Origin: Streptomyces cyaneochromogenes
GTDB taxonomy: Bacteria; Actinomycetota; Actinomycetes; Streptomycetales; Streptomycetaceae
NCBI RefSeq assembly: GCF_003963535.1
Contig: NZ_CP034539.1
Span: forward strand, 5,270,001 to 5,334,000
Length of the DNA: 64,000 nt
Direction of reading: 5' to 3'
Part shown: positions 56,166 to 61,368 of the stretch, one piece after another
Layout: each line of letters opens with the position of its first letter
Numbering within the stretch: the first letter of the stretch is position 1
Notes under the pieces: generated by a model
Seen by the model: the letters and a program-made list of their open reading frames with translations, nothing else
Told to the model about the DNA's origin: nothing
Database searches by the model: none
Translations under genes and position numbers: made by a program

Positions 56166-57956
56166 TCACCCTCCCCCGGCGCCCTTCGACCCGTCCTTTG
56201 ACCCGCCCTTCGCCCCGCCCTGCGTGGCAGCCCCCCAGATCCCCGCCGCCACCCCCTGCGCGAACTCGACCGGCGGCGGCACGTTCGGCAGTTGCGCGGG
56301 TGCCGTCGTGCCCTTCTTGCCGCCCGCCCGGTCGGCGAACAGGGCGACCGTCAGGGCGAGTCGGGCGTCGTAGCCGGTGGTCCACACGGTCCGCCGGGTG
56401 ATCCCGCCACCCGCCCCGCCGGTGGTGAAGAGCCCCGCCTCCGCCGGGCCGACGGCGACGGGCGTCGGTACGGCACCCGTGCGCGCGCCCGCCATCAGCG
56501 CCTCCTTCTCGCCCAGTACCCGCCGCACGTCGGGGCTTGCCCGGTAGACGGTGCGGCCCTCCCGCGTGATGCGCGCGACGGTGTACGGGGCGGCGTACCT
56601 GCCGTCCGCGGCCAAAGTGGCGTACGCCGACGCCAGGTTCAGCGGGGTCGGCGCCGATGTCCTCAGCAGCGCGCGCAGCGGTTCGTCCGCTTCGCGCACC
56701 GCGCCGAACGGCTCCAGCGCTGTCCCCGCCTCCACCGCCCCGCTCACCGCGTCGTTGAACGGCTGACGGGCGTAGTCCGACCCCCCGTACAGCAGCCGCA
56801 CCGCCCCGTCGCCGGGCACCATCCCGACGACGGCGGTGTGCACCCGGACACCGCCCTTTCCCCCGGGGTGCTCCTGGACACGTTGCGCGGTGCTGTCCTG
56901 GAGCGCCAGGTCGAAGGTGGTCGTCACGCTGTAGCCGCCGCTCGCCAGTTGGTCCTCGGTGATGCCGAGCCGGTCGGCGGCCTCCTTCGCGGCCACGTCG
57001 ATCAGGTACTGCCGCTGCCCCTCGGTCTCGCCGGGCGGATAGAACCGGAACGCCGGGAAGCGTGCCGCGGCCCGCTCCCGTGCCGTGATGCTCCCGCTGG
57101 CCGCCATCGCGTCCAGCACCCACTCCCAGCGGTTCTCCAGCTTCGCGGTCACCTTCGGATCGGAGCCCGCCTTCTCGTAGTACGAGGGGATGTTGACGAT
57201 GGACGCGAGCGCGGCGCCCTGCGCGACCGTCAGGTTCCTCGCGTCCACGCCGAAGTAGTTGCGCGCGGCCGACTGGATCCCGGCGGCACCCCGGCCGAAG
57301 TACACGGTGTTGAGATAGCCCTCCAGGATCTCGTCCTTACCGCGGGTGCGGTCCAGCTTGATTGCGACGATCGCCTCGCGCGCCTTGCGGGACAGTGACC
57401 GTTCCGGGCTGAGCAGCGCGTTCTTCACGTACTGCTGGGTGATGGTGGAGCCGCCCTGCGGTTCGCCGCCCGTCAGCGTCGCGAGCGCGGCCCGTGCGAT
57501 GGCCTTCGGTGAGATCCCGCTGTCCGTACGGAAGGAGCGGTTCTCGGCGGCGATCACCGCTTCCTGCACATGCCGGGGGACCGCGGACAGCGGGACGTCC
57601 TGCCGGTCGACCGGTCCGCGCCGGCCCAGATAGGCGCCGTCCGTGTCGAGGAAGACGGTGCTCTGGGTGACGGTCTCGGGGTGCGGCTTCGGAATGGGCG
57701 TCAGGTGGTACGCCGTGACGGCCGCCGCGCACAGTGTGGCGAGCAGCGTGAGGAAGGCGTAGAGCAGCAGGCGCAGTCGCCGGCCCCGGGTGCGCCGGAA
57801 CCGGATGCGCAGCGGGACTCGCTCGCGGCGCCGGGTCCGCTTCTCGACGCGCCGCGCCGTGCGCGCCGGGAGCGGGCCGTCCGGCCTGTCAGGCCCGTTC
57901 GCCTCGCCGGTCCCGTCGGTCTTGCTCGTCTTGCCTGTTTCATTCATCTCGTTCAT
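56166..57956 (-). CDS. GT51 transglycosylase PBP with degenerate transpeptidase region
   Basis: 596 residues from ATG 57956. Basic cytoplasmic N-terminus, TM about 61-83, then a GT51 domain: EAVIAAENRSFRTDSG (Glu138), GGSTITQQYVKNAL, RKAREAIVAIKLD, KDEILEGYLNTVYFGRG (Glu212). The following region is shorter than in class A PBPs; where SxxK is expected it reads AVEAGTALEPF, and the KTG box is TTGGAGG. It therefore polymerises glycan but probably cannot cross-link. Coupled by ATGA overlap to the tethered sigma gene. Confidence 0.88.
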   Translation of the reverse strand: MNEMNETGKTSKTDGTGEANGPDRPDGPLPARTARRVEKRTRRRERVPLRIRFRRTRGRRLRLLLYAFLTLLATLCAAAVTAYHLTPIPKPHPETVTQSTVFLDTDGAYLGRRGPVDRQDVPLSAVPRHVQEAVIAAENRSFRTDSGISPKAIARAALATLTGGEPQGGSTITQQYVKNALLSPERSLSRKAREAIVAIKLDRTRGKDEILEGYLNTVYFGRGAAGIQSAARNYFGVDARNLTVAQGAALASIVNIPSYYEKAGSDPKVTAKLENRWEWVLDAMAASGSITARERAAARFPAFRFYPPGETEGQRQYLIDVAAKEAADRLGITEDQLASGGYSVTTTFDLALQDSTAQRVQEHPGGKGGVRVHTAVVGMVPGDGAVRLLYGGSDYARQPFNDAVSGAVEAGTALEPFGAVREADEPLRALLRTSAPTPLNLASAYATLAADGRYAAPYTVARITREGRTVYRASPDVRRVLGEKEALMAGARTGAVPTPVAVGPAEAGLFTTGGAGGGITRRTVWTTGYDARLALTVALFADRAGGKKGTTAPAQLPNVPPPVEFAQGVAAGIWGAATQGGAKGGSKDGSKGAGGG

Positions 57957-59014
57957 ATCCGCCACCACTCGCCGGTCGACCGTGCGGCGACCTTGCCCGC
58001 GGCGTCGTACACCGTGACGATCCGTTCGTCGGCGGCGGTGGAGAGGAACGCCTTGATGTCCTTCTCGGGCACGAGCGCGCTCGCGTACCAGAGGCCCCAG
58101 CCCGGACTGCCCGCCAGGACCAGGACTTTCGCGGTCGTCCTGCCGTCGCCGGTGTTCACCTCGACGCGGCCCGGTTCGCCGTCCAGGCCATGGAAGAGGC
58201 CGGACAGGAAGAGCCCGCCGTCGACGTTGTCCACCCGCAGGGAGACGCCCGGTTCGTCGCGGGCGGGCTCGCTGTCCTCCAGCCCCTTGAGGCGGACGGG
58301 CACCGCCCAGTGCCCGCGATCGGCCGTCAGCCACACCCGCACCCCCGGCCCGGCGGTCACCCGCTCGCCCGGCCCCACGACCCGGACCGGGCTCGCCGCC
58401 GGACCGGTGCCGTTCCCCGCCCGAGCACCGGAAGTCCCGCCCTGCGTAAGGCCCATGCGGTCGACGGCGAGCAGCGCGGCCGGCACGAGCAGCGCCGCGC
58501 ACGCGGCCGAGGCCAGGGCGAGACGGCGCCGCCGCCGGACACGCCCTTCTGCCTGGAGGCCGGCCGGCGGCAGCTCGGACGAGGCGACGTCCTCCACGGC
58601 ACGGGCGTACGTCTCGCGCAGCCGTCCGGGATCGGCGCCGGCCGCCCTGAGACCCTGTCTGACCAGGGCCCGCACCGCGCCCACCGAGCAGCCCAGCAAC
58701 TGGGCGATCTCCGCGTCCGACAGCCCCTCCCAGAACCGCAGCACCAGAACGGCCCGGCGTCGCGCGGCCCGTCGGCCACGCAGCGGACGCAGATGGCCCC
58801 GCACCAGACAGCGCCGTACATGGAAGTCCACGTCGTTGCGCGGCACGCGGCGCCACCGCGCGCACATCCGCACCAGCGTTCTCCGCGCCAACTCCTGTGC
58901 CGCACCGGCGTCGTCGGTGAGCAGCCGCGCGGTCGTCACCAGTGCGGACCAGTGCGTCCGGGCGTACGCGGCGAAGTCGTGGTCGGCGGGGAGTACGTGG
59001 GGGGTCGGGGGCAC
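57953..59014 (-). CDS. Membrane-tethered ECF-type sigma factor with exterior domain
   Basis: 353 residues from a GTG at 59014 with AAGGA upstream. Residues 10-75 resemble sigma region 2 (FAAYARTHWSALVTTARLLT, VDFHVRRCLVRGHL), and 86-125 region 4 (RRAVLVLRFWEGLSDAEIAQ, LLGCSVGAVRALVRQGLRA). The linker between them is unusually short. TM about 164-184 leads to an exterior beta-rich domain of about 165 residues (VWLTADRGHWAVPVRLKG, GDGRTTAKVLVLAGSPGWGL). It overlaps the PBP gene by four bases. Confidence 0.87.
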   Translation of the reverse strand: MPPTPHVLPADHDFAAYARTHWSALVTTARLLTDDAGAAQELARRTLVRMCARWRRVPRNDVDFHVRRCLVRGHLRPLRGRRAARRRAVLVLRFWEGLSDAEIAQLLGCSVGAVRALVRQGLRAAGADPGRLRETYARAVEDVASSELPPAGLQAEGRVRRRRRLALASAACAALLVPAALLAVDRMGLTQGGTSGARAGNGTGPAASPVRVVGPGERVTAGPGVRVWLTADRGHWAVPVRLKGLEDSEPARDEPGVSLRVDNVDGGLFLSGLFHGLDGEPGRVEVNTGDGRTTAKVLVLAGSPGWGLWYASALVPEKDIKAFLSTAADERIVTVYDAAGKVAARSTGEWWRI

Positions 59015-59206
59015 GTGGGCGGTCCTTCGGCTCGGGAACTCGGGATCAACTGCGATTTCGCCGCAGGCGGGTTGAGCAGCCGGGAAGCCAACGCCGTTGA
59101 GGAAAGGGGAGCCTGGAACCCCTGTGCGCCGTCTTCCCGGACGGGACCTGTACGCACGGCGGAGGGGGCCGGGTTGCACGGCAAGGGCACGGATTCCGGT
59201 GGGGGC

Positions 59207-59722
59207 ATGACCGAGGAAGAGTTCGACGCGTTCTACGCGACCGCGTTCCCCCGGCTGACCGGCCAGCTCTACGCCTTCACCGGAGACCACGGCGAGGCCC
59301 AGGACGTCGTGCAGGAGGCGTTCGTACGGGCCTGGGACCGGCGCAGGCAGTTCCTGGCGGACAGCGCCCCCGAGGCGTGGATCCGGACGGTGGCCATGCG
59401 GCTGGCGGTGAGCCGCTGGCGGCGGGCGAAACGCTGGCTGGAACTGGTACGGCGCACTCCGCCGCCCGTGTCCACGCCGGGGCCGGATCCCGAGCACACC
59501 GCGCTCGTGGTCGCCCTGCGCGAACTGCCCGAGGCGCAGCGGATGGCGATCGTCCTGCACCATCTGTGTGACCTGAGCGTGGAGCAGGTAGCCTCCGAGA
59601 CCGGTGCGCCCGTGGGGACGGTCAAGGCGAGGCTGTCCCGGGGGAGGGCGGCTCTGGCGAAGAGTCTCGCGGTGGACGAGGCCGACGGGCCGGTACGGGA
59701 GGAGAGCGGCCGTGTCCGATGA
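59207..59722 (+). CDS. ECF RNA polymerase sigma factor (SigE-family type)
   Basis: 171 residues from ATG 59207. Region 2 FDAFYATAFPRLTGQLYAFTG, DAQDVVQEAFVRAWDRR-like sequence (EAQDVVQEAFVRAWDRR), APEAWIRTVAMRLAVSRWRR; region 4 LPEAQRMAIVLHHLCDLSVEQVASETGAPVGTVKARLSRGR. The next gene, overlapping by 11 bp, encodes a single-span membrane protein, a likely antisigma-like partner. Divergent from the tethered sigma gene. Confidence 0.92.
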   Translation: MTEEEFDAFYATAFPRLTGQLYAFTGDHGEAQDVVQEAFVRAWDRRRQFLADSAPEAWIRTVAMRLAVSRWRRAKRWLELVRRTPPPVSTPGPDPEHTALVVALRELPEAQRMAIVLHHLCDLSVEQVASETGAPVGTVKARLSRGRAALAKSLAVDEADGPVREESGRVR

Positions 59723-60410
59723 ACTCTCGTCCGCACTGCGCGAGTTGGCCGCGAGCCAGGGCACTGCCCCGGACGTCGGCGGCGCCGGGATACGCGCCAG
59801 GGCGATGCGCCGCAGGCGCCGGCGCCGTGCCGCCGTCACCCTCGGCGCGGGAACCGCGGCCCTCGCACTGCTGGGCCTCGCCCTGACGTCGGCCCTCGAC
59901 GGGCCCTCGAACCACCCGGTCCGGCCACAGGTCCCGGCCGCGGAGGGGTCGGTGAGCGGCCCGGCCCAGTCCGTCCCGCCGTCCCCGAGCACCCCCCTGC
60001 CGGTCTCGGGCACGCTCAGCCTGCCCGACATCACCCTCACGGTCGGCCGCCGGCCGCTGTCGATCCTCTCGGCGTACGACGGCTCGATCGGGTTCACCGG
60101 CCCGCTGACGGTGGCCGCGAAGCACACCGAGAGGGACCTGGCGGTCGACGTACCGGCCAAGGGCCCCGTCAGCGTGAGCGTCCCCTACGTGGTCGAACTG
60201 CGCGACACCCAGGGCCGGACCCTCTACGTCGGCACCTTCACCAAGCCGTTGGCCCTGGGCGACCCCTACCCCACCAGCGACTGGATCGGCCTCGACGCCG
60301 AGGACGCCAAGTGGTTCTACGCCCGGATCCGCGTCGGCGACAGCATCGCGGTGACGACCCTCACGACGCCGAGTGCCACGCCCTCCGACCGTGCGCGCCC
60401 CGCGAGCTAG
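59712..60410 (+). CDS. Membrane protein partnered with the sigma factor
   Basis: 232 residues from a GTG at 59712 with GGAGAG upstream. Cytoplasmic N-terminus LSSALRELAASQGTAPDVGG and an RAMRRRRRRR patch, one membrane helix (AVTLGAGTAALALLGLAL), a Pro/Ser linker, and an exterior beta domain (LSLPDITLTVGRRPLSIL, VSVSVPYVVELRD). Overlap with the sigma gene and topology suggest it regulates or senses for that factor; no zinc antisigma motif is seen. Confidence 0.78.
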   Translation: MSDELSSALRELAASQGTAPDVGGAGIRARAMRRRRRRRAAVTLGAGTAALALLGLALTSALDGPSNHPVRPQVPAAEGSVSGPAQSVPPSPSTPLPVSGTLSLPDITLTVGRRPLSILSAYDGSIGFTGPLTVAAKHTERDLAVDVPAKGPVSVSVPYVVELRDTQGRTLYVGTFTKPLALGDPYPTSDWIGLDAEDAKWFYARIRVGDSIAVTTLTTPSATPSDRARPAS

Positions 60411-60420
60411 GATCCGGACC

Positions 60421-61368
60421 ATGGCCCTGACCATGAACGACGTGGACCGGTTCGAGGCATCGAGGCCCCGCCTGGCGGCCATCGCCTACCGCCTGCTCGG
60501 CTCGGCGAGCGAGGCCGAGGACGCCGTGCAGGAGACGTTCCTGCGCTGGCAGGCCGCCGATGTCGACCGTGTCGAGGTCCCCGAGGCCTGGCTGACGAAG
60601 GTGCTCACCAACCAGTGCCTCAACCAGCTCACCTCGGCCCGCGCCCGGCGCGAGACCTACGTGGGCCAGTGGCTGCCCGAGCCGCTGCTCGCCGGGGACC
60701 CGATGCTCGGCCCGGCCGACACCGCCGAGCAGCGCGAATCGGTGTCGTACGCGGTCCTCGCCGTACTGGAGCGCCTCTCGCCGGGCGAGCGGGCGGTGTA
60801 CGTGCTGCGGGAGGCCTTCGCCTATCCGCACCGGGAGATCGCCGAGATCCTCGACCTCACCGAGGCCGCCTGCCAGCAGATCTACCACCGCGCCAAGAAG
60901 CACGTCGCGGCCGGCAAGGCCCGCACCGAGGTCGACGAGGACGCCGCCCGGCGGATCGTCGAGGAGTTCCTCGCGGCCGCGACCAGCGGTCGTACCGAGC
61001 CTCTCGTGCGGCTGCTCACGCAGGACGCCGTCTCGATCGGTGACGGGGGTGGGAAGGTCCCGGCGCGCGCCAAGGCGTTCGAGGGCGCCCTGGCGGTGGC
61101 GAAGTTCCTGCGGGGCCTGTTCAAGCCCAGCGAGGCCAAGCGTGCGCTGGTCGGCGGCTCGCCCGAGGTGTACGCCACGACCGCCAACGGCGGCCCGGCC
61201 CTCGTGGCGGTCCTCGACGGGCGGGTCGTCGGCGTCATGTGCCTGGAGGTGACCGCCGACGGCATCGCCGGGTTCCGCAACCAGGTCAACCCCGACAAGC
61301 TCGAACGCGCGACCGAGCGGTGGGCGGCCACGGACCACGGGGAGCCCCTGCTGCGCAGCGCGTTCTGA
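60421..61368 (+). CDS. sigJ: ECF41-type RNA polymerase sigma factor (SigJ-like)
   Basis: 315 residues from ATG 60421. Region 2 ASRPRLAAIAYRLLGSASEAEDAVQETFLRW, region 4 LSPGERAVYVLREAFAYPHREIAEIL and the C-terminal SnoaL-like domain beginning RRIVEEFLAAATSGRTEPLV with GGGKVPARAKAFEG. In ECF41 this fused domain replaces an antisigma factor. The oxidoreductase 135 bp downstream is the typical partner gene. The name is by family resemblance only. Confidence 0.9.
   Translation: MALTMNDVDRFEASRPRLAAIAYRLLGSASEAEDAVQETFLRWQAADVDRVEVPEAWLTKVLTNQCLNQLTSARARRETYVGQWLPEPLLAGDPMLGPADTAEQRESVSYAVLAVLERLSPGERAVYVLREAFAYPHREIAEILDLTEAACQQIYHRAKKHVAAGKARTEVDEDAARRIVEEFLAAATSGRTEPLVRLLTQDAVSIGDGGGKVPARAKAFEGALAVAKFLRGLFKPSEAKRALVGGSPEVYATTANGGPALVAVLDGRVVGVMCLEVTADGIAGFRNQVNPDKLERATERWAATDHGEPLLRSAF

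Follow-up and report, generated by a model that had tools for sequence, protein, structure and literature searches.

Membrane-tethered transcription factors of the ToxR/CadC type carry a winged-helix HTH in a cytoplasmic N-terminal part, followed by a single transmembrane helix and an outer sensor. The protein described here, encoded in a stretch of 64,000 nucleotides of the Streptomyces cyaneochromogenes genome (NZ_CP034539.1, positions 5,270,001 to 5,334,000; hereafter the window), has the same layout, but its HTH is sigma-derived. Sigma factors fused to membrane segments have also been described—ECF48, ECF52, ECF53 and IutY—with regulated proteolysis from the membrane proposed for ECF52 and ECF53 and shown for IutY (PMC8999054; PMC5826349). 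ECF52 (SCO4117), ECF53 and ECF48 are, like the present protein, actinobacterial ECF sigma proteins with a C-terminal transmembrane extension, but they have a zinc-finger anti-sigma domain, joined in ECF52 by a carbohydrate-binding domain, and the literature treats them as sigma factors, whereas in our protein a zinc finger was not found and the sigma part is degenerate. IutY (ECF243), a sigma/anti-sigma fusion, likewise unites sigma and membrane-protein parts in one protein. It belongs to cell-surface signalling in Gram-negative bacteria, where Prc and RseP release it (PMC8999054), whereas no FecR-type domain was found here and, again, the sigma part is degenerate. PhyR offers a different parallel, with a compact sigma-like domain that is degenerate in its RNAP and promoter contacts and a gene divergent from an operon for a sigma factor and a candidate anti-sigma, but PhyR is soluble and has a receiver domain, while the protein in the window sits in the membrane and carries an outer domain. 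It unites the ideas of a membrane-fused sigma factor and of a PhyR-like mimic, and neither definition fits it fully. Our searches of the open-licence PubMed Central literature listed no description of a degenerate membrane-fused sigma factor, although one may exist.

Also among the closest counterparts is the canonical SigE-family pair, such as that of S. albiflavescens (locus L115), which has homologous parts in the same order and, where linked, the same neighbours (the sigma gene D_sig and a PBP gene). It differs in comprising two genes, with an intact RNAP motif, a -10 Asn triplet, a 47-50 residue segment between the sigma domains, its own promoter-like element and a preceding standalone outer-domain gene. 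We give roughly an even chance to the overall proposal that at this locus a sigma factor has turned into a membrane signalling protein, with a tethered sigma-derived HTH and a peptidoglycan-linked outer sensor, whose target would be either DNA directly or, for a membrane-bound sigma mimic, the neighbouring sigma/anti-sigma pair, and that intermediates of this conversion are extant in Streptomyces.

Organization of the fused gene and its neighbourhood

The features under discussion, in window coordinates, are as follows.

56166-57956, minus strand: transglycosylase (PBP-like) gene downstream of the fused gene, its start overlapping the fused-gene stop (ATGA)
57953-59014 (stop included), minus strand: gene for the fused sigma-like/transmembrane/outer-domain protein (P0001), GTG start, 353 aa
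57956-58393, minus strand: outer beta-rich domain, residues 208-353, without a Pfam match and with weak Ig-like resemblance only
58463-58519, minus strand: transmembrane helix, residues 166-184, Arg-rich side inside
58523-58636, minus strand: cytoplasmic juxtamembrane tail, residues 127-164; in split loci its homologue is the cytoplasmic portion of the separate membrane protein
58640-58762, minus strand: sigma4-derived HTH, residues 85-125, lacking the first helix of sigma4 and with Ala113 in place of the recognition-helix Thr
58763-58789, minus strand: collapsed junction, residues 76-84, corresponding to the 47-50 residue segment of canonical relatives
58790-58978, minus strand: sigma2-derived helices, residues 13-75, with Arg44 for the Gln of (E)AEDLVQ and Arg72 for the -10 Asn
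59148-59177, plus strand: ECF-type promoter-like element CTGTACG-N17-GGTTGC upstream of D_sig, kept in split and fused loci
59207-59722, plus strand: D_sig, a divergent canonical SigE-family sigma gene (TIGR02983 score 177.9 bits, above the 141.55 cut-off)
59712-60410, plus strand: D_TM, a membrane protein co-encoded with D_sig, candidate anti-sigma

Sigma region 2 is thus followed, nearly without a linker, by region 4, one transmembrane helix and the outer beta domain. The open reading frame, TIGR02983, Pfam, hydropathy and AlphaFold2 agree with the initial annotation that sigma regions 2 and 4 are fused to a transmembrane and an outer domain, the latter being of about 146 residues (208-353) rather than the 165 first given. 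Pfam recognizes Sigma70_r4_2 at residues 84-123 (E 5e-11) and finds no region 2, which is detected by the SigE-family model TIGR02983 of NCBIfam (residues 11-83, model positions 5-78); the whole-protein score of 90.5 bits is below the curated cut-off of 141.55, which by this measure leaves the protein outside the SigE family. Mean Kyte-Doolittle hydropathy peaks at 2.30 over residues 166-184, immediately after an Arg-rich stretch. In all 52 fused proteins compared below the peak reaches 1.78 or more, and the 16 residues round its start include five or more Arg/Lys. Neither a zinc-finger nor a FecR family was found by Pfam up to E 1, and FecR was likewise absent among the NCBIfam matches listed (25 of 39). 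Pfam showed no receiver domain, and the winged-helix family Trans_reg_C is absent from its table, the HTH being sigma region 4. A chance or artefactual open reading frame is ruled out by full-length orthologues in many genomes, and a GAAGGA-type ribosome site 5' of the GTG was seen by eye in the orthologues' upstream sequence.

The full AlphaFold2 model, built from 36 fused sequences (mean pLDDT 78.6, pTM 0.49), places sigma2 helices at residues 14-33, 36-56 and 59-75 and sigma4 helices at 81-95, 100-107 and 111-125, with a gap of only residues 76-80 in between, followed by a helix at 150-182, over the tail and the membrane segment, and a beta-rich part; means over 10-residue blocks of pLDDT are 83-95 across residues 11-130. 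The outer domain modelled alone gave a usable structure (pLDDT 78.8, pTM 0.80). Its fold had no Foldseek match at E 0.001, and the best structural hit, an Ig-like ectodomain with Z 5.8, was below the tool's meaningful level, i.e. not a confident match. BLASTP gave no support for homology between the outer domain and D_TM.

Split and fused states of the locus

A whole-protein search of 295 genomes of the genus returned 38 with a match at E 1e-20, own genome included. Scanning GTDB genomes yielded 77 named loci, of which 76 belong to Streptomyces and one to an unclassified actinobacterium. The compared set comprises these GTDB loci, the window and 39 stretches taken from the remaining 37 genomes with a match. 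It holds 96 distinct sigma-like domains adjoining an outer domain—52 fused in one frame, 36 split with a standalone outer-domain gene and eight split without it—in a sample whose pattern-based scan and E cut-offs favour relatives of the query, a further fused locus (G108, L156) having surfaced outside them. The 36 split loci preceded by the standalone gene are referred to as canonical. Of 245 genomes sampled across the order, 48 had a match to an outer-domain profile; they fall in three of eight genera, and the six matches outside the genus were weaker (E 9e-14 to 2e-9).

Elsewhere in Streptomyces, the same locus encodes a canonical SigE-family sigma factor and a separate membrane protein. The expectation in the initial annotation that the fused functions are normally split is borne out by relatives that retain an unfused pair at this locus, and sequence comparison shows the two arrangements to be alternative states of a single locus. 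With some stretches cut by contig ends, D_sig is kept at 49/52 fused and 18/36 canonical loci, and the transglycosylase at 51/52 fused loci, 8/8 split loci without the standalone gene and 7/36 canonical ones. Of the three remaining fused loci, L083 matches D_sig over a shortened length, and the stretches covered for L082 and L097 contain no match; in all 17 fused genomes from the whole-protein genus search, D_sig is matched with an E value of 1e-45 or lower. A gene for an L,D-transpeptidase (Pfam YkuD), seen in the translations beside D_sig to lie between it and the operon, is found at 14 of the 18 D_sig-linked canonical loci versus one of the 49 D_sig-linked fused loci. An example is the gene adjoining D_sig at 6618-7568 of L149, an arrangement found in many Streptomyces and missing from nearly all fused loci.

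Both states occur together in three genomes (L090 with L136, L091 with L139, and L106 with L141), and one contig (G161:C4) has two diverged split copies of the system, L053 and L054. In L105 (7001-8085), a close fused relative (68%) that is counted among the eight split loci without the standalone gene, a frameshift separates the sigma part from the outer domain; it may be a recent break or an error of sequencing.

Sigma and promoter features in the fused loci

Gln34, Asn62-64, Thr140 and Lys142 (L115 domain numbering) are invariant in the 36 canonical loci. All 52 fused proteins have lost the sigma2 Gln of (E)AEDLVQ and the -10 Asn. Compared with the canonical loci, the 44 main fused loci have Arg, Leu or His for the Gln (44/44), Arg, Lys, Glu or Gln for the first Asn (44/44) and Ala for the recognition-helix Thr (44/44), with the second Thr of that helix mostly lost as well, while the eight long-linker fused proteins have Arg for both Gln and Asn (8/8). 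The RNAP-motif Asp is conservatively changed to Glu, and the -10 specificity-loop segment WRRxPR-D-FxVRR is largely retained.

From the last helix of sigma2 to the second helix of sigma4, the intervening segment spans 47-50 residues in the canonical loci, 38-71 in the eight-member fused clade, 29 and 27 in the degenerate split loci L060 and L067, and 11-25 in the 44-member main fused clade, a range parsed automatically for 42 members and by eye for two (by-eye lengths are ~15 for L103, ~25 for L039 and ~13 for L105). The strongly shortened linker proposed initially is thus real, with 13 residues here, and common to the main clade, but shortening of the linker is not the whole story since the first region 4 helix is missing too. 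An assembly deletion is ruled out by the graded shortening across the 44 proteins.

How much sigma function could survive can be judged from studied ECF factors. Deleting the linker of Mycobacterium tuberculosis sigma-H, or swapping it for disordered sequence, abolishes transcription (PMC6411747), and the 20-residue linker of sigma-L is fully extended to span the distance (PMC6372665). In these terms, the 13-residue segment of the query, with its five-residue modelled gap, does not amount to an ECF-type linker able to span RNAP, and the conserved beta-prime contact motif of region 2 is broken by Arg44. Together with the sigma-H and sigma-L precedents, this makes ordinary sigma function look excluded for the main fused clade. 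The -10 Asn change would not be disqualifying on its own, since Arg is natural at this position in M. tuberculosis sigma I, J and K (PMC6411747). For the long-linker fused clade, it is only motif and promoter loss that make the case against sigma function.

Canonical operons have a promoter-like element, TGTCATCC-N16/18-GTT, found by a motif hunt upstream of the standalone outer-domain genes. When the 1300 nt preceding the sigma gene are searched with one octamer mismatch allowed, it is present at 35/36 canonical loci (the exception being L054), where its presence is partly by construction because the motif was learnt there, at 1/8 split loci without the standalone gene (L120, whose motifs are intact) and at 0/52 fused loci; shuffling predicts 0.2 hits in the canonical and 0.15 in the fused set. 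In 29 whole genomes, a strict exact form with GTTT was at the locus in 13/14 genomes with a split locus (one of which, G086, also carries a fused locus), mostly as the sole copy, and absent from 14/15 fused-only genomes, including our own (0 matches), the other (G182) having one on another contig. This pattern is what would be expected if the canonical sigma regulated its own operon. Binding of the fused protein to the conserved intergenic element was rejected as evidence, since that element also precedes D_sig in split loci.

These losses bear on the one-protein sigma sensor of the initial annotation, with its need for proteolysis or a special RNAP geometry, and on the reading in which an active sigma factor would be freed from the membrane by regulated proteolysis and bind RNAP in an unusual geometry. 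There are precedents among membrane-fused sigma factors (PMC8999054; PMC5826349), and the -10 specificity-loop segment is largely there. However, the Gln that contacts RNAP is replaced and the cognate-type promoter element lost in 52/52 fused loci, the -10 Asn and the first sigma4 helix are gone, and a modelled linker of five residues compares poorly with the already fully extended 20 residues of sigma-L, which makes an active sigma factor very improbable. An alignment showing region 2 or 4 to be non-functional, one of two findings named at the outset as contrary to the sensor, is largely what we obtained (RNAP contacts are gone or replaced); the other, a wrong transmembrane call, was not seen.

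Compared across relatives, the loci show a sigma factor that has lost its Gln, -10 Asn, linker and first sigma4 helix, an operon that has lost its promoter-like element, and the formation of one reading frame, all at one locus. The order of these events was approached with a tree of tail plus outer domain from 92 loci (quick method, SH-aLRT only, midpoint root), leaving out L116, L118, L130 and L063, which have no downstream outer domain in the stretch covered. All 52 fused rows fall in a 55-row set with L105 and the degenerate split loci L060 and L067, on a branch with SH-aLRT 89 (unstarred), and the fused label needs three changes on the tree. With this branch value, a midpoint root, and L060 and L067 as long branches, fusion may have occurred either once or twice. 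Degeneration probably preceded fusion because L060 and L067 are split yet degenerate, and the Gln to Arg change also occurs in split loci L124, L128, L131 and L136.

Possible roles of the fused protein

Among 14 close fused orthologues (91 pairs), dN/dS is 0.30 in sigma2, 0.29 in the junction and 0.25 in the HTH, the lowest values of the protein, versus 0.54 in the tail, 0.80 in the transmembrane/stalk part and 0.63 in the outer domain; at ~72% G+C the absolute values are rough, and it is the contrast between segments that counts. Against this constraint, the sigma part has evolved faster in fused than in canonical loci (mean core identity 0.69 versus 0.83). Several replaced positions are conserved anew: Arg44 (93%), Arg76 (98%), Gly97 (95%) and Ala113 (100%). 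A sigma part that is degenerate and yet so well preserved suggests retention for a new job. The several sigma functions lost together, and the standalone outer-domain genes of relatives, would also fit a relic, a protein whose working part would be the outer domain, possibly together with the transglycosylase encoded downstream, and whose sigma part would only provide a fold or an anchor in the cytoplasm. But a relic is improbable in view of the sigma part being the most constrained segment and having its own re-fixed residues.

The modelled sigma part superposes on anti-sigma-bound SigW at 2.5 A across 120 residues (Z 14.4) and on PhyR at 2.8 A across 116 residues (Z 13.2). Where the alignment to an RNAP-bound sigma chain covers both domains, the value is mostly 26-28 A. 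As modelled, it would be a compact helical unit resembling both anti-sigma-bound sigma and PhyR. Residues ~80-140 of the model also match LuxR-type HTHs (Z about 7-9), which may reflect just a common helical arrangement.

This resemblance brings in the main rival, a PhyR-like sigma mimic in which a signal from the outer domain would make the degenerate sigma domain bind D_TM and thereby free D_sig. PhyR itself has a degenerate sigma-like domain and a gene divergent from ecfG-nepR (PMC8103513), and the fused gene is a divergent neighbour of D_sig/D_TM, with D_sig conserved at 49/52 fused loci and in every one of the 17 fused genomes mentioned above. Nevertheless, the divergent layout predates degeneration, D_sig flanking half of the canonical loci (18/36), the fused protein has no response-regulator domain, and D_TM is itself a candidate anti-sigma. 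Furthermore, net charge rises from canonical to fused, from +1.4 to +4.2 in the HTH and from +0.8 to +3.7 in the RNAP-facing helix 36-56, and such a gain in the HTH would be superfluous in a protein-binding mimic. We consider this mimic unlikely, and rank the readings as membrane-tethered regulator first, then PhyR-like mimic, relic and active sigma.

The preferred reading, to which we tentatively give slightly less than an even chance, is that the retired sigma is a membrane-tethered regulator, most likely acting through its basic HTH. An ancestral SigE-family ECF sigma, partnered with a co-encoded membrane protein, would have been retired, and the fused protein would no longer act as a sigma factor. 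Its cytoplasmic part would be a compact, more basic helical domain with an HTH, held at the membrane, and the outer domain would sense a peptidoglycan-linked envelope state. The final and weakest step would most likely be DNA-binding regulation from the membrane in the style of ToxR/CadC. Putative DNA binding by the HTH may also be weakened, since the recognition helix lacks its Thr and mostly the second one. For the cell wall as functional theme, it is the neighbours that point to it, through the transglycosylase downstream and the L,D-transpeptidase of unfused relatives.

If true, this shows a conversion route from transcription initiation factor to membrane regulator, with several steps probably preserved: RNAP contacts lost ahead of fusion, as in two split loci, collapse of the linker, and loss of the promoter and of genes. 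The system allows direct tests of which parts of an ECF sigma persist once transcription stops being the job, and cautions that a membrane-fused protein annotated as sigma-like may not function as a sigma factor.

The surroundings of the fused gene hold some further observations. The downstream transglycosylase (56166-57956, minus strand) has a strong Transgly domain and almost no transpeptidase match (E 0.045), so that it may represent a PBP whose transpeptidase domain has degenerated. The CTGTACG-N17-GGTTGC element of D_sig has a single exact match in the 10.7 Mb genome, which suggests a regulon of one operon for this sigma. Next in the row, at 60406-61368 on the plus strand, lies a further sigma gene, of the SigJ/ECF41 type with a SnoaL-like extension.
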